This document shows, in pieces, positions 5,209 to 30,472 of a stretch of DNA of 40,908 nucleotides. Both the position numbers and the translations under genes were made by a program. The notes under the pieces are model-generated. The model had not been told where the DNA came from and searched no databases. It was given only the letters and a program-made list of their open reading frames with translations. The stretch's first letter is position 1. Each line of letters opens with the position of its first letter. Source of the DNA: a virus; the IMG/VR virus record IMGVR_UViG_3300022842_000027, positions 1 through 40,908 of that record; one strand, given 5' to 3'.

Positions 5209-7041
5209 ATGGCTGAAAATGAATCAGGCTTTGACACTTTAAAGGCTTTCTCTCAACCCGAAGGTACTTTTTCTTTTGAACCTTATGAAGGTTATGTAGA
5301 GGCTAATCAAGTCCTAAGAAATGATGCGAAGAGTCAAATTAATACTCAATTAGCTGAACAAGCTGTTAATGAAACATTTGATTATAATAAGATAGCTAAT
5401 CAATTTGCTGGTCAATATATTCCTGTAAGACAAGCTAGTGAAGAACAATCTGGTATTATTGTGAAACAATTAGGTTTAGGTCAAAGATACAGTGCTGAGG
5501 ACATGAAAGCTCAAATTGAAAAAACATTAGGTCCTCTCCCTGAAAGAAATCAAAAAAGAAGAGCGGTAAATTTTCTTGTTAATTCACTAAGAGCTAAGAC
5601 TCCATATAAAGGAGCAGCTGGTGTACTAGATGTTTTATTACAATCTTATTCAGTAGATATGACTCAAGAACAAGCTTTAGAAATAGAACAACTTAAACAT
5701 AAAATGTCTATTGGTGAGTTAGCAGTTAAACAAGCACAAGATGCAAACGAAGCAGTTCTTGCTAAAGAAGCGGAGTTTTATTTAAAAAAAATGAATCAGG
5801 ACGATGACTACTTACAAAAATATTTAAGTTTCACTGCTGATCTTAGTCTAAAAAATGCTGCCTTTGATATTGAGAAAGAACTTAACAGAATTAAAGGAGC
5901 TCAAGAACTAATTAATAATCCAGGTAGAATTGATCAAAATATAACTTACACAGTAGGAGACGACACCATTACAAGTGCTTCAAGAAGAGTTTACAATGAA
6001 GAAGAAGGTCAATATCAATATATGTTAATGGATGAGAATGGACTTTTTACAAGATCTGTCCCTATCGATCCTAAAACAGGTTTACCTAATTTTTATTTAT
6101 CACCAAAAGACTTACCTATTACCGAAGCACAAAAGGCAGCAAATACAGGGATTTCAGGTATTAGCGGAGCTAAACAGGCTGAATTAACAGGTGACATGTT
6201 TGCTCTTGATAGAGCTGCTGTCACACTTCAAGATATTTTAACTGCTGATTATAATGCTTTACAAAATGGAACCTCTTACTTAGGTATTCAAGGTGTAATA
6301 GCTAATTTAAAACAAGAAACTTTTTACACTTTTGAAGATATTTTAAATGGTGTAAAAGGCGGATCAGGAACAGCTTTATATGACGAAGGTCAGGTTTTAT
6401 TTAATAAAGACCAAGCTTCCACTAACGAAGAAAGAGTTCCTGATAATAGCATTTATCAAATGACCTCCTTTGAGGTTCCTACTAGTGGTAAATTAGACTC
6501 AATTAAGTCTTTTGGTAAAACGAAAACAGTGAGTAAAGATGTAAATTTAGCTATGTTAATGGACCCTATGTTTTATACCGGTTTGGGATATGATCCTACT
6601 TATGCACAAAATAAAGTAAGAGAAAATATCATTGTATATGCTTTAGCTAGAGCTCAAAAACCAACAGGAAGATTAAACGTAGACGATGTTAAGCGTGCTT
6701 CTACTTCAGTGAATATTTCAGGTATGCAGTCTGATGAACGTGTAAGAGCTCAATTACAAGAAGTTTTAAAGTTTATCAATAGAGGTATTGAAAGTATTTA
6801 TAATCAAGGTTATCAACAAAATTATGAAGGTAAGAATACAAATATATTTGATAGTAACCCAGCTGTAACTGATGTAAGAAAAAGATATGAGCAATATTTA
6901 GGTATTATACCATCCAATCAAGAACCTAACCAAAACCAGAAAAAACCTACTGTAGAAGAAGATGTAATTATAACTGATCCAGGTGGAGAAGAATCTATAA
7001 GTTTATCCAATGAACAGATATTTAATGTAGGGGATTTGTAA
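5209..7041 (+). CDS. Large virion / internal core protein, 610 aa
   Basis: Mostly helical, charged and soluble, without signal peptide or clear membrane span. The N-terminus (MAENESGFDTLKAFSQPEG) leads into a helical region around residues 140-230 (EQALEIEQLKHKMSIGELAV). A Pro/Asn/Gln-rich linker (PSNQEPNQNQKKPT) precedes the acidic C-terminus. Size, order and coupling (AATG overlap with the 908-aa gene) match the medium-sized internal virion protein of podovirus ejection modules. No enzyme motif is seen. RBS GGGG at 5199-5202. Confidence 0.6.
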   Translation: MAENESGFDTLKAFSQPEGTFSFEPYEGYVEANQVLRNDAKSQINTQLAEQAVNETFDYNKIANQFAGQYIPVRQASEEQSGIIVKQLGLGQRYSAEDMKAQIEKTLGPLPERNQKRRAVNFLVNSLRAKTPYKGAAGVLDVLLQSYSVDMTQEQALEIEQLKHKMSIGELAVKQAQDANEAVLAKEAEFYLKKMNQDDDYLQKYLSFTADLSLKNAAFDIEKELNRIKGAQELINNPGRIDQNITYTVGDDTITSASRRVYNEEEGQYQYMLMDENGLFTRSVPIDPKTGLPNFYLSPKDLPITEAQKAANTGISGISGAKQAELTGDMFALDRAAVTLQDILTADYNALQNGTSYLGIQGVIANLKQETFYTFEDILNGVKGGSGTALYDEGQVLFNKDQASTNEERVPDNSIYQMTSFEVPTSGKLDSIKSFGKTKTVSKDVNLAMLMDPMFYTGLGYDPTYAQNKVRENIIVYALARAQKPTGRLNVDDVKRASTSVNISGMQSDERVRAQLQEVLKFINRGIESIYNQGYQQNYEGKNTNIFDSNPAVTDVRKRYEQYLGIIPSNQEPNQNQKKPTVEEDVIITDPGGEESISLSNEQIFNVGDL

Positions 7042-9767
7042 TGGTAGCTAAAAATAAATTAGTGAAAATTTTAGAAGGTACTGCTAATGAAAAAACTTTT
7101 AGATTAGAAAATCCTACCAGCCCTACTGAAGCTGATATATTAAAAATTAAACAGGCTTATGGTATCCCTGTTGAATATTCAGCGCAAGAAGCGACCGCCG
7201 CTCTAAATCAATTAGCTCAGCAAGAAGTTGCTGGTGTATTAGAAAATATTCCTTATGAGCCTGGTTCAAAACAATATAATAATGAAATTATGGCTAAGAT
7301 TGCCGATGTTCAAGAGCGTAAAACGTTAATTGAAGACCCGGCTAATTATTTATTTAAAAATTTTCAACAAAAAATCCTTGGAGGTAAATTAGATAGATTT
7401 ATCCCTGACGAATTAGTTTCAAAACCTACCTTTGAAGCAGCTGGTTCTCTTACCGCTATGGGAGCAGCGGGACTTGCAACAAGGTCCTTATCAGGAGCTG
7501 CCGCTGCAAAGGTTGCTGGTGCGGATGTTCTTGGAGCACAAGGTGGTGGTCAAATTTATGAATTTACTAATCAAGTTTTAAGATACTTAAATGATCTTCC
7601 AGAAGAAGATAAAGAAACTCAACAAGCTAAGTTTTTAGAGGATGCTTATATGAATCTGGCTTTCACTGGAGGAGCCGCGAGCCTCGGACCAATATTCAAA
7701 GCTTTTAAGCCTATGATAGGTAGAAACATTTTTGGTGTAGGTAAAACAAAAGATCAACAAAGAATGATGGAATTAGCTGAAACTTATGGTGTCCCTCTTG
7801 GTATTATTCAGGCTACTGATAATAAATTTTGGAAGTCTTACTCACAGATAATAGGTGTATTCCCTTATATAGGAACTCCTTTTACACGTTCAGGTGAAGC
7901 TACTAATGAAGCTGTAAGACAATATGTAAAAAGAATGAGTGATGGTTTTGCACCACTTCAAACTATGTCTGCTATGGGTATGGATTTTAATAAAATGCTT
8001 GGTGATGCTTATTCAGATACAAGAGTAATACAAGAAATTCTTTATGATGATTTTGGAGAGTATGCAACAAAACTAGGTGGTAAAAAAGTTATTAATATAG
8101 GAAGAACAAAAAAATTAGCTAAGGAATTTGCAGATCAATTTGTAGCCAACACTCCCTTAACTAGTGGTGGTAGACTTTTAAAATTCCCAGGAGATGGTTC
8201 TCAAAAAGCTTTCGGTCAATTTTATGAAACAATGTCTAAAATTGATGCAGACATAACTATAGATCAAGCAAAAACTATGCAAACAATGTTTTCGGATTTT
8301 ATGGCTAATTTTAAAACAGAGTTCAAAGGAAGTATACCTAAAGAACAAGCTGCTAATTTAAGTAAGATGAGACAAATGTTTGAAAAAGAATTAAACACTT
8401 TAACAAATTTAGACGGAGATGTAGATAAAGTTATTTTTGATACAGCCGTTAAAAAATTAACTACAGCTAATGATTATTTTGCTATGACCTCACCACAATT
8501 TAAAGGGGGAGTGGCTGATAATTTTAAACAAGTCAATGCTAACATATTCGGCCCTGGTCCTACCTTGGAAAGAGGTGTGATGTATCCAGGAGAAGTTATG
8601 GAGATTGTAGTTGGAAGAGCTAGAAAAGATCCAAAAGTTATGGAACATTTATTAGATTTATCTAGACCAACAAGAGCTCAAATGGAAGCTTATCAAAAAG
8701 CTGGATTTAAAGAAGGTGTTCCTGTTGAAAATATTACAGTCATGGTAAGAGATATAGACCCCGACAGTGCTACTTTTGGTAAGATGTTACCTGAAAAACA
8801 AACAGTAGTTTCAGTAGCTCCTGAAGCGGGCCGTCAAAAAATTATGAGATACTTAATGGATGATGCTTTTAAAAAATCCTTAATAGGTGTGCCTCCGTCT
8901 AGAACAGCAGAAGAGTTTTTAAACTTACGTAATGTAGATACTTTTGACATCCAGCAAAAAGGATTTCAAAAAACAGCTAATAAATCAGGTAATACACAAG
9001 CAGCACAATTTAAAGAAGTTGTTATGGATCCGACTGCTTTTTCTAGAGAACTAGGATTAGATACAGCTGAAGGTAGACAAGTTTTAGAAGAAGTTCTTCA
9101 AGGTACTGGAACAAAAATTACAGACATTGACGATTTCATTCGTGTAGCAGATGCAGCTGGAAGTTTTACAATTAGAGATCCTTCTAAGTTTGTAGAACGT
9201 CGTGTAACTCTAAGTGGTTTTAAAGGAGCTATGTTCTTTAGTGGTGCTACAGCTGGTGCTGGCGCTTTTAGTGCATCAACTCTCATGATACCTTTGTTGT
9301 TACGTTATGGTTCTAATATTTTAACAGATCCAAAAGTTTTAAAAGCTTTTACAGCGAAACTTTCCGATAAAGGTTTTGATGTAGCTAAAAGAAAAATTTT
9401 AATGGACTGGGCTGCAAGAACTTTACCATCGGATGAAGAAGTTGAGCAAGAAAAATTTGAACAAGACATCAATCAAGCTATTTTTAATTTACAAATGAAT
9501 CCTCAATTAGAAGGGGAAGCTAAAAGAGGTAGACAAAATCAAATGAATATGATGGAAAAAGGAATAAACCAAGAACAATTAAATATAGGTGAAAATATAG
9601 TTGACCGATTAGATACCGGTTTAACGGCCCAAGGACCAAGATTTACAGAAACTCCAAGTGTAGCTTCTACTCAATACCAAGACTTATCTAACGCGGCAAG
9701 GAATAGTTTAGCTTTTGGCACGATAGATGATGCTATGGCAGCAGAAAGAGGAATAGCGGGATTATGA
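7041..9767 (+). CDS. Large internal virion / DNA-ejection protein candidate, 908 aa
   Basis: The longest protein of the left half. Features: an Ala/Gly-rich hydrophobic segment at about residues 135-160 (AAGSLTAMGAAGLATRSLSG), another near 730-760 (GAMFFSGATAGAGAF and STLMIPLLLRYG) that could cross a membrane, and a Gln/Asn/Glu-rich C-terminus. Membrane segments inside a very large hydrophilic protein are typical of ejection proteins that extend the tail across the envelope. No lytic transglycosylase motif was found. The gene is coupled at both ends (ATG at 7041, next ATG at 9764). Confidence 0.6.
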   Translation: MVAKNKLVKILEGTANEKTFRLENPTSPTEADILKIKQAYGIPVEYSAQEATAALNQLAQQEVAGVLENIPYEPGSKQYNNEIMAKIADVQERKTLIEDPANYLFKNFQQKILGGKLDRFIPDELVSKPTFEAAGSLTAMGAAGLATRSLSGAAAAKVAGADVLGAQGGGQIYEFTNQVLRYLNDLPEEDKETQQAKFLEDAYMNLAFTGGAASLGPIFKAFKPMIGRNIFGVGKTKDQQRMMELAETYGVPLGIIQATDNKFWKSYSQIIGVFPYIGTPFTRSGEATNEAVRQYVKRMSDGFAPLQTMSAMGMDFNKMLGDAYSDTRVIQEILYDDFGEYATKLGGKKVINIGRTKKLAKEFADQFVANTPLTSGGRLLKFPGDGSQKAFGQFYETMSKIDADITIDQAKTMQTMFSDFMANFKTEFKGSIPKEQAANLSKMRQMFEKELNTLTNLDGDVDKVIFDTAVKKLTTANDYFAMTSPQFKGGVADNFKQVNANIFGPGPTLERGVMYPGEVMEIVVGRARKDPKVMEHLLDLSRPTRAQMEAYQKAGFKEGVPVENITVMVRDIDPDSATFGKMLPEKQTVVSVAPEAGRQKIMRYLMDDAFKKSLIGVPPSRTAEEFLNLRNVDTFDIQQKGFQKTANKSGNTQAAQFKEVVMDPTAFSRELGLDTAEGRQVLEEVLQGTGTKITDIDDFIRVADAAGSFTIRDPSKFVERRVTLSGFKGAMFFSGATAGAGAFSASTLMIPLLLRYGSNILTDPKVLKAFTAKLSDKGFDVAKRKILMDWAARTLPSDEEVEQEKFEQDINQAIFNLQMNPQLEGEAKRGRQNQMNMMEKGINQEQLNIGENIVDRLDTGLTAQGPRFTETPSVASTQYQDLSNAARNSLAFGTIDDAMAAERGIAGL

Positions 9768-25025: not shown

Positions 25026-25577
25026 ATGGCAAATGTACCTCATATAACAGAAAAACAACGCAAATTTGTGGAAATTTTGATCACAAAGGGCACTTTTCAG
25101 AGTGGAAAAGATTGTGCTACTGAAGCTGGGTACGAAGAAAGCTGTGCTACTGTGATGGCAAGTAAATTACAGAACCCTAAATATTATCCTCTAGTAGTGA
25201 CTGAAATAGAAGCAAGACGTAACGAGTTATCTAGAAGATATTCCATTAATTATAAATCTCATTTAGCTGCTTTAGGTAAATTACGTGACGAAGCCGTAGC
25301 TGCTGGTAATTTTACCGGGGCGATTGCAGCAGAGAAATATCGTGGTATGGCTGCTGGTTTATACATTGACAGAAAAGAAATTCTTCATGGAAGTATTGAC
25401 CAGATGACTGCCAAGGATGTAGAGGAGAAGCTTAGTGAATTACGAAAAAAATTGCAAGAAAACGGAGACAATGCCAAAATTATTGAATCCGACTCATTAC
25501 AAGGGGAACCTGTCGGAAGCGATAGCTCTGACGTGGTTGCTCAAGAAGGGCAACTTAGTATTCAAGACCATTCATGA
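25026..25577 (+). CDS. terS: Terminase small subunit-like protein
   Basis: 183 aa. An N-terminal helix-turn-helix like that of TerS (TEKQRKFVEILITKGTFQSG, then CATEAGYEE) recognises the packaging site; the central AAEKYRGMAAGLYIDRKEIL segment, then QMTAKDVEEKLSEL, is typical of small terminase oligomerisation regions. The Ser/Asp-rich tail is overlapped by the next gene for 107 nt. It recruits phage DNA to TerL, whose gene is 3.4 kb downstream beyond accessory genes, a larger separation than usual. Confidence 0.85.
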   Translation: MANVPHITEKQRKFVEILITKGTFQSGKDCATEAGYEESCATVMASKLQNPKYYPLVVTEIEARRNELSRRYSINYKSHLAALGKLRDEAVAAGNFTGAIAAEKYRGMAAGLYIDRKEILHGSIDQMTAKDVEEKLSELRKKLQENGDNAKIIESDSLQGEPVGSDSSDVVAQEGQLSIQDHS

Positions 25578-26503: not shown

Positions 26504-26531
26504 TTGACATCCTAATTTATCCCACTATATT
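26504..26531 (+). promoter_or_regulatory. Consensus promoter, copy 1 of a repeated element
   Basis: TTGACA (26504-26509), 16 bp, TATATT (26526-26531). TTGACATCCTA and ATCCCACTATATTA are shared with the promoter at 27308. It drives the 51-aa gene at 26553 through an AAGGAG site. Confidence 0.8.
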
Positions 26532-26552
26532 ATTAGTAAGGAGAAACAAAAA

Positions 26553-27174: not shown

Positions 27175-27307
27175 CCCTTTTTTCCATTCTCCATTGCTTC
27201 TTTACCTTTTTAACTTACCTATATCCCTTATATATTATCCGAGCTGGGAGCTGGTTTGTGGAGGAAGAAGCATACAAAAGTTTTTTTATTTTATTTTACT
27301 TTTCCTC

Positions 27308-27335
27308 TTGACATCCTAGAGAATCCCACTATATT
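27308..27335 (+). promoter_or_regulatory. Consensus promoter, copy 2, for the 27342 transcript
   Basis: TTGACA (27308-27313), 16 bp, TATATT (27330-27335), nearly identical to 26504-26531. The predicted +1 is 27342. It fires into a stretch without convincing protein-coding signals. Confidence 0.8.
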
Positions 27336-27341
27336 ACTATT

Positions 27342-27623
27342 ATGCGAATGTATCATAAACAACAAGAGTCCAATTTAGGAGCTATTTGTTTATTTTCTCC
27401 CGTAGCAGAAGCTAGGGATTCGCTGAGGAAGTTAGACGCCTCTAAAGATAAGGGAAGAGTTTTAGGAGGTGTAAGCCATTTTGTTCTTAGGGTTCGTTAC
27501 CTATCTAGCTTAATCTCTTATCTTGGAAACGCAACGCTAAGAACATTGGGGAAGGGTATTTTTATTATAAAGGTTGACACTTCGTCCTTCCCCTCCAAAC
27601 TTGGGCAGAGGTTCGCTCTGTAA
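27342..27623 (+). CDS. Alternative reading of the same transcript: 93-aa ORF
   Basis: MRMYHKQQESNLGAICLFSP then a Ser/Leu/Arg-rich sequence with no recognised domain. Its ATG would be exactly at the transcript 5' end (leaderless), as for the gene at 28547, which is the main argument in favour. Against it: no Shine-Dalgarno, unusual composition, and the ORF DNA folds into at least five stems. Listed as the competing interpretation of the ncRNA. Confidence 0.3.
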   Translation: MRMYHKQQESNLGAICLFSPVAEARDSLRKLDASKDKGRVLGGVSHFVLRVRYLSSLISYLGNATLRTLGKGIFIIKVDTSSFPSKLGQRFAL

Positions 27624-27761
27624 TATGGTTAACACCCTCTGTCCATTACAACGAGGTATTTGTAGACCTATCCACATTGCCAACAGGCAAGAGGTACATC
27701 AATTAATCTTTGTCACAAGTGGAGTATGTGCAAAGTTCCTCGGCTAATGGTAAAGCCTTTT
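27342..27761 (+). ncRNA. Candidate structured non-coding RNA, about 420 nt
   Basis: It starts at the predicted +1 of a consensus promoter. Stems that can form: CCC-G-TAGC/GCTAGGG (27399-27417, GNRA-like AGAA loop); CCTCTAAA/TTTAGGAGG (27439-27469); TGTTCTTAG/CTAAGAACA extended inward by GTT/AAC and CGTT/AACG (27482-27545, 16 pairs); GGGGAAGG/CCTTCCCC (27548-27593); CAGAG/CTCTG (27606-27620); TTGCC/GGCAA (27677-27690); GGCT/AGCC with TTTT (27742-27761) as a weak end. The stems follow one another in order, as in large ornate phage RNAs. No match to tmRNA, RNase P or a group I intron was seen. Confidence 0.5.
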
Positions 27762-27864
27762 CTCCATTCTCCATTACCCTTCTACCCTTTATACAATGGC
27801 TACTATAATTATATTATTCCGCCGGTCACAGCTCAGCGTTGCACGATCGCTATCCTCTAAAAAG

Positions 27865-27873
27865 TTATCCACA
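27865..27873 (+). promoter_or_regulatory. DnaA box 1
   Basis: TTATCCACA, a perfect consensus DnaA box, lies in a 16-bp block AAAGTTATCCACAACT that is repeated at 28491. It sits 20 bp upstream of a promoter, so DnaA could regulate transcription or mark an origin. Confidence 0.65.
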
Positions 27874-27892
27874 ACTTAATTAACATAATAAC

Positions 27893-27920
27893 TTGTAATT
27901 AGTTAGGACATAACTATATT
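27893..27920 (+). promoter_or_regulatory. Promoter for the 115-aa gene
   Basis: TTGTAA (27893-27898), 16 bp, TATATT (27915-27920). The block TTGTAATTAGTTAGGACAT is nearly repeated at the promoter at 28513. The following AGGAGG serves ATG 27949. Confidence 0.65.
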
Positions 27921-27948
27921 AATAGTATACCGATAGGAGGTAATAACT

Positions 27949-28494: not shown

Positions 28495-28503
28495 TTATCC
28501 ACA
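28495..28503 (+). promoter_or_regulatory. DnaA box 2
   Basis: A second perfect TTATCCACA in the same AAAGTTATCCACAACT context as box 1, 630 bp away, again just upstream of a promoter. Confidence 0.65.
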
Positions 28504-28512
28504 ACTAATTAG

Positions 28513-28540
28513 TTGCAATTAGTTAGGACTTCTATAATAT
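28513..28540 (+). promoter_or_regulatory. Promoter for the leaderless 80-aa gene
   Basis: TTGCAA (28513-28518), 16 bp, TAATAT (28535-28540); an overlapping TATAAT lies at 28533. The ATG at 28547 is 6 nt beyond the -10 box, so +1 coincides with the start codon. Confidence 0.6.
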
Positions 28541-28546
28541 ACTTAT

Positions 28547-28966: not shown

Positions 28967-30472
28967 TTGCCACAAATAATTCCATCTGATATAAGTCTGA
29001 GTATGAGATTAGACGTTGATGTCGAATCAATGACGCATGAAGAAGCAAGAGAAGCAATGCTTAAACTTGAACTTCGTAAAGCGCAATTAGATTTAAGTAG
29101 TAAGTCAAGAGACTCCTTTATAACGTTCGTTAAAGCAGTGTGGCCAGGGTTCGTGGAATCTGATCATCATAGAATGATCGCGGAGAAGTTTGAGAAGGTC
29201 TTGTCAGGTGAAATAAAACGATTAATCGTGAACATGCCACCGAGACATACAAAATCAGAATTTGCGTCCTACCTCTTTCCAGCTTGGCTCTTGGGCCACA
29301 AACCACAGACCAAGATTATACAAACAACTCACACGGCTGAACTGTCTTACAGATTTGGTCGTAAGGTAAGGAACCTTATTGACTCTAATGATTATGCAAA
29401 AGTTTTTCCAGATGTTAAACTCTCAGAAGATTCTAAAGCTGCGGGACGTTGGGAAACGAATCATGGCGGTGAATATTTCGGCGCGGGTGTGGGTGGTGCT
29501 ATTACTGGTCGTGGTGCTGATCTACTTATTATTGATGATCCCCATTCTGAACAAGACGCCTTGTCTTCGACAGCAATGGATAATACATGGGAATGGTATA
29601 CATCGGGTCCTCGTCAACGTTTGCAACCTGGAGGTTCGATCGTTGTAGTTATGACGCGTTGGTCTGAAAAAGACATCACAGGACAATTACAAAAAGCCAT
29701 GGGTGAACCTAAAGCGGATCAATGGGATGTTATAGAATTTCCAGCTATTCTTCCTTCAGGGACCCCGGTCTGGCCTAATTATTGGAAACTCGAAGAACTA
29801 GAAGCTGTCAAAGCATCTTTAACAGAACAAAAATGGCAAGCGCAGTGGCAACAAAATCCTACAGGTGAAGAAGGAGCTCTCATCAAAAGGGACTGGTGGA
29901 GAATTTGGGATAGAAAAGATATCCCTATGTTGAAGCATGTTATACAAAGTTATGATACAGCGTTTACAAAAAAGGAAACAGGGGATTATAGTGCTATTAC
30001 AACGTGGGGTGTATTCTATCCTGACGAAGTAACCCCTAATATTTTATTATTAGATTCAATCAAGGAACGTTATGAGTTCCCTGAACTCAAGAAAGCAGCT
30101 ATAGAACAATATAAATACTGGGAACCGGAGACCGTGATCGTTGAAGCGAAAGCATCAGGACTGCCCTTGATCCAAGAACTACGAGCCTTAGGTATTCCTG
30201 TAATTAACTTTACCCCTAGTAAAGGGAATGATAAAGTATCAAGGGTACACGCAGTTGCCCCGTTGTTCGAAAGTGGAGTAGTGTGGATACCTGACGAAAG
30301 ATGGGCTGAAGAAATGGTCGAAGAGTGTGCACAGTTCCCGTTTGGTGAACATGACGACTTAGTAGATTCTATGACTCAAGCCTTAATGAGATTTAGACAA
30401 GGCAATTTTGTGCGGTTATTCGATGATGAAGAAGAAGAGCCCACGGACCACGGAGAGACAGAGTATTACTAA
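28967..30472 (+). CDS. terL: Terminase large subunit
   Basis: 501 aa. ATPase: Walker A-like NMPPRHTKSE (about 89-98), Walker B LLIIDDPH (Asp190/Asp191), coupling motif VVVMTRW. Nuclease: SYDTAFTKKETGDYSAI (Asp330), VIVEAKASG (Glu393), GEHDDLVDS (Asp463/Asp464), the RNase H-fold catalytic acids. It powers DNA translocation through the portal and cuts the concatemer. The TTG at 28967 follows an in-frame stop directly; ATG 29003 is the alternative start. Neither has a clear RBS. The acidic tail ends TEYY. Confidence 0.97.
   Translation: MPQIIPSDISLSMRLDVDVESMTHEEAREAMLKLELRKAQLDLSSKSRDSFITFVKAVWPGFVESDHHRMIAEKFEKVLSGEIKRLIVNMPPRHTKSEFASYLFPAWLLGHKPQTKIIQTTHTAELSYRFGRKVRNLIDSNDYAKVFPDVKLSEDSKAAGRWETNHGGEYFGAGVGGAITGRGADLLIIDDPHSEQDALSSTAMDNTWEWYTSGPRQRLQPGGSIVVVMTRWSEKDITGQLQKAMGEPKADQWDVIEFPAILPSGTPVWPNYWKLEELEAVKASLTEQKWQAQWQQNPTGEEGALIKRDWWRIWDRKDIPMLKHVIQSYDTAFTKKETGDYSAITTWGVFYPDEVTPNILLLDSIKERYEFPELKKAAIEQYKYWEPETVIVEAKASGLPLIQELRALGIPVINFTPSKGNDKVSRVHAVAPLFESGVVWIPDERWAEEMVEECAQFPFGEHDDLVDSMTQALMRFRQGNFVRLFDDEEEEPTDHGETEYY

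Follow-up and report, generated by a model that had tools for sequence, protein, structure and literature searches.

The window, a stretch of 40,908 nucleotides spanning positions 1 to 40,908 of the metagenomic record IMGVR_UViG_3300022842_000027, comes from an uncultured, probably marine phage. An RNA locus lies between its terminase genes TerS (25026-25577) and TerL (28967-30472), which were identified by PHROGs and Pfam, and comprises the following features.

27178 to 27195, + strand: left copy of the intergenic repeat TTTTYTCCATTCTCCATT, which has 3 copies in the window (0.1 expected)
27200 to 27780, + strand: RNA cassette (promoter, RNA and end), an all-or-none block between repeats
27308 to 27335, + strand: sigma-70-type promoter, with TTGACA at 27308-27313, 16 nt, and TATATT at 27330-27335
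27342 to 27647, + strand: lineage-specific 5′ domain of the RNA (fold z of −3.0; alignment of the window, L006, L086 and L087)
27342 to 27623, + strand: 93-amino-acid open reading frame (ORF), with its ATG at the inferred +1 and no Shine-Dalgarno sequence
27482 to 27545, + strand: interrupted stem, predicted, in the minimum-energy fold and invariant in all four homologues
27548 to 27593, + strand: GGGGAA..TTCCCC stem, in the minimum-energy fold, its base kept and its tip replaced in L087
27648 to 27747, + strand: alpha domain, which belongs to a conserved RNA family with a pseudoknot (103 bits with model R1)
27742 to 27761, + strand: weak hairpin plus TTTT at the RNA end (GGCT..AGCC, −5.2 kcal/mol)
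27758 to 27775, + strand: right copy of the same repeat as TTTTYTCCATTCTCCATT

The promoter matches the consensus at 11 of 12 positions, and its whole 29 bases are duplicated at 26504-26532 (0 expected by chance). Both the start of the RNA near 27342 and the transcription of 27342-27761 from its own phage promoter are inferred. In the window the 200 nt 3′ of the RNA contain no gene, and the gene that follows comes with a promoter-like site of its own. One relative (L007) has a degraded T-run, so that 27742-27761 is at best a poor terminator. No tRNA or tmRNA was detected in the window with ARAGORN. The 445 nt from 27336 fold at −129.2 kcal/mol, compared with −108.6 ± 5.7 kcal/mol for shuffled sequences (z of −3.6; 0 of 100 shuffles), but the opposite strand is likewise low in folding energy (z of −4.05), indicating that folding energy alone proves little and that comparative evidence is needed. 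The proof of structure is covariation in homologues, not folding energy.

An earlier note, made from the sequence alone, had proposed a consensus promoter, a 16-pair interrupted stem, an 8-bp GC-rich stem, a weak terminal hairpin followed by TTTT, and an ORF of odd composition without a Shine-Dalgarno sequence. All of these held: the promoter stands at its exact position, both stems are in the minimum-energy fold, the hairpin is present, and the codon score of the ORF is at the floor of that of genes. The decisive evidence lies not in those stems but in the 3′ end of the RNA, alpha.

Two stretches of the window, 27860-27925 and 28495-28545, contain a repeated AAAGTTATCCACAA plus TTAGTTAGGAC before the promoter-like sites of g115 and g80; AAAGTTATCCACAA matches the DnaA-box consensus TTATCCACA. 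Most of the closest TerL relatives share the stretch 27858-27928 at 79-93% identity.

The RNA family is defined by 27648-27747, and the unit gained or lost as a block extends from about 27200 to 27780. The core of alpha is compact and pseudoknotted, and many of its unpaired bases are invariant; P1 closes two arms (P1b-P2-P3 and P4) and the P4 loop GUGGA pairs with the J2/3 strand UCCAC.

27652 to 27656, + strand: P1, 5′ strand CGAGG, pairing with 27738-27742; 7 of the 9 P1 pairs are compensated across the family
27660 to 27662, + strand: P1b, 5′ strand, pairing with 27700-27702
27666 to 27669, + strand: P2, 5′ strand ACCT, pairing with AGGT at 27692-27695
27671 to 27675, + strand: pseudoknot strand TCCAC, pairing with GTGGA at 27719-27723 in the P4 loop (100% paired)
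27677 to 27690, + strand: P3 hairpin, variable in length and sequence, with double changes in 5 of 5 pairs
27708 to 27735, + strand: P4 hairpin CTTTG..CAAAG (99.5% of cells paired)

Covariation was evaluated in an alignment (A1) of 24 distinct alpha sequences, which was built by MAFFT on sequence only and fitted to no structure. P1, P2, P3, P4 and the pseudoknot were named by eye on A1; RNAalifold independently gave P1, P2 and P4, and added P1b. The proposed pairs are held in 93.0% of cells in A1, as opposed to 82.8% in shuffled alignments and 36-47% in slid controls, and 115 cells are double-changed, compared with 40 in shuffles, with compensatory change in 20 pairs. An APC-corrected G-test with sequence weighting was used to rank all 4,950 column pairs, and proposed pairs take the top 7 places and 10 of the top 12. 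With an effective number of only about 10 sequences, support is weak for individual pairs toward the bottom of the ranking.

Compensation is also visible in individual helices. Other copies have CCCT/AGGG, CCCG/CGGG or TCCT/AGGA at P2, and the window lineage carries a double change in P1b, with U-A for the G-C of other copies, such that two oddities of the window (GTATTTGT for GTATGTGT and ATCAATT for ATCACTT) amount to a single compensated P1b pair. The pseudoknot has one compensatory change, in L109 (TCTAC/GTAGA). Core pairs include 11 G-U versus 5 A-C, which weakly favors the + strand. Alpha is a real structured RNA whose P1, P1b, P2, P3, P4 and pseudoknot are supported by covariation.

By comparison, no carrier of the 5′ domain is known beyond the window, its kin, L086 and L087. 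The aligned copies of the window, L006, L086 and L087 share an invariant block of about 165 nt, and insertions and deletions are limited to hairpin tips and the junction with alpha. At the ATAAAC/GTTTAT hairpin tip, 21 nt are lost in L006 and 9 are gained in L087, and an 86-nt insertion at the junction in L086 is similar (79% over 68 nt) to what immediately precedes alpha in L110/L111. Since the interrupted stem at 27482-27545 is inside the invariant block, it is not testable by covariation. The codon score of the ORF within this domain is −0.06 per codon, the floor of 193 gene windows (median, 0.45), and the ORF has no PHROG or Pfam match. Between the window and L087 there are 5 synonymous and 14 nonsynonymous differences, none within the invariant block, where synonymous sites are frozen along with the remaining sites. 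The ORF shows no sign of protein-level selection, and it is unlikely to encode a functional protein.

Alpha occurs in 42 virus records, including the window, as recovered with DNA patterns and model R1, and each of the 21 records checked has a single copy. A large-terminase search of viral contigs returned seven kin with at least 99% protein identity; the element at 27342-27761 is intact in L002, L004, L006 and L007, and L003 begins inside the right-hand repeat. With two overlapping frames as DNA probes, L086, L087 and L090 were found, the last having only the 3′ end in common, and this shared 3′ end supplied the DNA patterns for the wider search. A correctly spaced final pattern yielded no new members, suggesting that the IMG/VR set is nearly exhausted for close relatives, and none of the 29 viral contigs retrieved by a mis-spaced pattern, which served as a negative control, had an alpha score. 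(L093, a viral contig that a pattern matched by chance, has a permuted tmRNA, RF04321, at 7037-7237.) DNA searches of the INPHARED phage collection and of plasmids with the element or alpha gave short chance matches only; pattern scans of 84,980 prokaryote genomes gave none, and then five chance matches that were rejected by the model; and alpha was not found in the four closest named phages. All alpha records are metagenomic and mostly incomplete, their hosts are unknown, and there are no expression data for any alpha carrier.

Rfam 15 (4,227 families), a search that the earlier note had proposed, has no match in the window or in about 40 alpha or related loci, and the searched literature on pelagiphage genomes and transcriptomes makes no mention of a noncoding RNA at this locus. 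Alpha is a previously uncatalogued RNA family with no relative in Rfam 15, although motifs published only outside Rfam are not excluded. The newness sits at the level of the RNA family; its function may prove familiar, for instance that of a leader switch, an antiterminator or a decoy.

Near-identical phages differ in whether they carry the RNA. The cassette is present in L002, L004, L006 and L007 and absent from L001 and L005, whose left flank follows the window as far as about 27206 and whose right flank rejoins it at about 27783, and which keep one copy of TTTTYTCCATTCTCCATT. This empty site with a single repeat indicates that the promoter-RNA unit is present or absent as a block. Gain and loss of the cassette are consistent with recombination between the repeats, which remains a possibility, and alpha is carried on exchangeable cassettes among phages.

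In most relatives, alpha has the position of a 5′ leader. At least 12 loci (L019, L107, L108, L020, L117, L137, L138, L086, L087, L105, L114 and L123) have alpha ending 12-21 nt before an ATG that bears a Shine-Dalgarno sequence. P1 starts directly after the −10 box in L019-type phages, and in L086, close kin of the window, the same RNA is directly before a Shine-Dalgarno sequence and gene. Relatives with the same gene order have two intergenic slots between TerS and TerL that hold either alpha or unrelated RNA modules, which usually sit directly between promoter and Shine-Dalgarno sequence.

DUF7222 slot, alpha: L019, L018, L020, L138, L107, L108, L113, L117, L137
DUF7222 slot, mB: L008, L011, L016, L017, L022
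DUF7222 slot, mB in combination: mB+mH in L021, mB+mD in L014, mB+alpha+mI in L120
DUF7222 slot, mD: L012, L023
DUF7222 slot, W5+alpha: L087
g115 slot: mE in L018, L009 and L022; mC in L008 and L015; W5+alpha in the window

Other phages (L102, L114 and L119) have these modules beside alpha, and the slot loci have no Rfam match. The variety of modules in the two slots indicates that the RNA in the window occupies a habitual structured-RNA site of this phage group.

Several other noncoding elements were observed in these genomes. Module mB (L120, 1285-1384) is a conserved leader RNA with GRTYCAGGTAGTTGCCGTAATGACTCGAGATCCTGRATCG after a hairpin whose arms are seemingly compensated; it has no Rfam match and occurs also in L008, L011, L014, L016, L017, L021 and L022 as a DUF7222 leader. 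Module mE is conserved, noncoding and just before g115 (L018, 4845-4975; L009, 3820-3948; L022, 2863-2991), and appears again in the unrelated alpha phage L119 (2085-2215). Module M2 is a probable H-type pseudoknot (GGCUNRGGUAGUGCC...AAAACUACC) found at L112 3253, at L118 2154 and 2204 as a tandem pair, and at L100 10749, and on the − strand at L099 9668, L043 2237 and L077 1872. Noncoding blocks M3 (ATGAGTAGRAAAGGC..., downstream of alpha in L110/L111/L119) and M4 (GTAGACATAGAG...GTGGGTGATAAAATAATCCCAC, upstream of alpha in L099/L104/L109) are 84-97% identical between otherwise different phages.

Among known RNAs, GOLLD resembles the present case in being phage-borne, of unknown function, and composed of a conserved 3′ region and a far less conserved 5′ region (PMC12286853), but the conserved part of alpha is much smaller (about 100 nt), the window has no tRNA, and alpha is usually a leader before a gene. 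ROOL is likewise a phage-borne structured RNA with pseudoknots, roughly 660 nt long and frequently located close to tRNA islands (PMC12286853), from which alpha differs in its placement and in lacking an Rfam match. The GOLLD and ROOL covariance models gave no gathering-score match in the window or in the alpha loci searched. The marine phage motifs manA and wcaG are also 5′-leader RNAs (Weinberg 2010, PMC2864571), but alpha has no Rfam match and its downstream genes encode unrelated hypothetical proteins. The same architecture as that of alpha leaders occurs in a cultured relative, the SAR11 phage Pelagibacter phage HTVC027P (MN698241; L162), where a Flavobacterium-1 RNA (RF02976; 5184-5304, − strand) in the TerS-TerL gap ends a noncoding leader of about 400 nt just before a gene. 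The two RNAs differ in sequence and structure: RF02976 was found only in L162 and at no alpha locus, and R1 has no match in HTVC027P. Flavobacterium-1 is not named in the literature searched. The put antiterminator of HK022 is a phage leader RNA near a promoter that acts in cis on whatever follows. It consists of two simple stem-loops, unlike the pseudoknotted two-arm fold of alpha; by analogy, put-like antitermination is a conceivable mode of action for alpha, possibly through suppression of terminators such as that of L124.

The earlier note's broader proposal, an undescribed class of structured RNA between terminase genes, is supported by the strong covariation and the lack of an Rfam 15 match. 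Its large RNA of about 420 nt held in part, the family being a pseudoknotted domain of about 100 nt joined to a lineage-specific 5′ domain. The RNA is neither GOLLD nor ROOL, the large phage RNAs that the note cited as known, and most relatives have it as a 5′ leader and not free-standing. The proposal would have been refuted by homologues conserving the 93-aa protein with synonymous bias and lacking covariation, but differences run 5 synonymous to 14 nonsynonymous and alpha covaries.

The most likely reading, to which we assign a probability of roughly 0.5, is that alpha is an exchangeable 5′-leader module acting in cis, its mechanism being inferred. The region 27342-27761 would be transcribed into a two-part RNA, the lineage-only 5′ domain plus alpha, and alpha would fold at or near the 5′ end of an RNA and act on the transcript that carries it. 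Its invariant loops would be recognized by a ligand, protein, ribosome or RNA polymerase, and this recognition would affect how the downstream gene is expressed. In one version, a switch offered only as a proposal, the P1 3′ strand (CCUU/CCUC) may pair with either the P1 5′ strand or the downstream Shine-Dalgarno sequence (AAGGAG), so that formation of alpha would expose the ribosome site. In leader-type loci the P1 3′ strand is complementary to the Shine-Dalgarno sequence, which is an observation on sequence without a statistical test and reflects in part purine/pyrimidine richness. The gene next to the leader is missing in the window, so the copy there resembles a leader left without its gene, or else an independent RNA.

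Action in cis is favored by the exact placement between promoter and Shine-Dalgarno sequence in most relatives and by the replacement of alpha with other modules at that place. Against it stand the lack of a nearby gene after the RNA in the window, the free-RNA-like arrangement of promoter, alpha and strong terminator (−18.9 kcal/mol) in L124, the position of alpha just downstream of a long ORF in L112/L118, and the many kinds of genes downstream of alpha, unlike most riboswitches, together with its never occurring twice per record. DUF7222 was found in 4 of 22 records searched. Alpha thus lacks one hallmark of a riboswitch, a consistent class of downstream gene, as downstream genes differ widely.

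The main rival, which remains possible, is that alpha forms the central part of an accessory RNA acting in trans, one that binds a protein or ribosome or serves as a decoy against host defense; its genomic neighbors would then be irrelevant, and leaders would merely be a convenient source of transcription. Such a role is in keeping with the single copy per record, the unrelated neighbors and positions, the free-standing promoter-RNA-end units in the window and L124, and the presence or absence of the RNA between near-identical phages, which fits an accessory function. It is countered by the exact leader placement in most relatives and by the unrelated RNA modules that take the same place. In the window, the RNA has no adjacent gene.

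Three further explanations are very unlikely. A packaging RNA with a role like that of phi29 pRNA is suggested by the location between terminase genes and by the finding of a TerS homologue, often no more than about 5 kb away, in 25 of 31 alpha records, but the cassette is missing from L001 and L005 despite an almost identical terminase region, and such loss in near-identical phages argues against an essential role. In addition, the same slots are filled by other RNA modules, there is no Rfam match, and no terminase was found in the L099/L104 and L112/L118 records. A self-cleaving ribozyme or remnant of a mobile intron-like RNA would account for the compact pseudoknotted core, the many invariant unpaired bases and the mobile behavior of the cassette, but no Rfam intron or ribozyme matches at gathering score, and placement in an untranslated leader leaves nothing for an intron to restore. 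The sole intron match was to a group II model, upstream of the RNA and below threshold (16.3 bits; cutoff, 40). The 5′ part could instead be a leaderless gene for the 93-aa protein, leaving only alpha as RNA: an open frame of 93 codons occurs in just 0.7% of shuffles, its ATG is at the inferred +1, and L006 and L087 differ in length at three places, each time by a multiple of three. The excess of nonsynonymous differences is not the pattern of a conserved protein, however, and the codon score, the lack of PHROG and Pfam matches, the confinement of indels to hairpin tips and the absence of the ORF from other alpha carriers also speak against it.

That both strands fold well would suit a fortuitous fold in AT-rich intergenic DNA, or a repeat at the DNA level, but this explanation is all but excluded: compensatory changes in P1, P1b, P2, P3, P4 and the pseudoknot refute it for alpha, and it stays possible only for individual stems of the 5′ domain.

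Beyond alpha as a cis-acting leader, a bolder reading, offered tentatively as one a little more apt to be wrong than right, is that a pool of unrelated, independently evolved RNA modules (alpha, mB, mC, mD, mE, the M2 pseudoknot and others) is swapped as cassettes into fixed leader slots beside terminase genes. Alpha adds a new RNA family, with a covariation-supported structure that includes a pseudoknot, in relatives of the phages of SAR11 bacteria, and in this phage group exchangeable structured RNA modules fill the noncoding TerS-TerL gaps. Model R1 and compensatory mutants make the function of alpha directly testable. If the bolder reading is true, these modules would constitute an undescribed combinatorial RNA layer of phage gene control or counter-defense.
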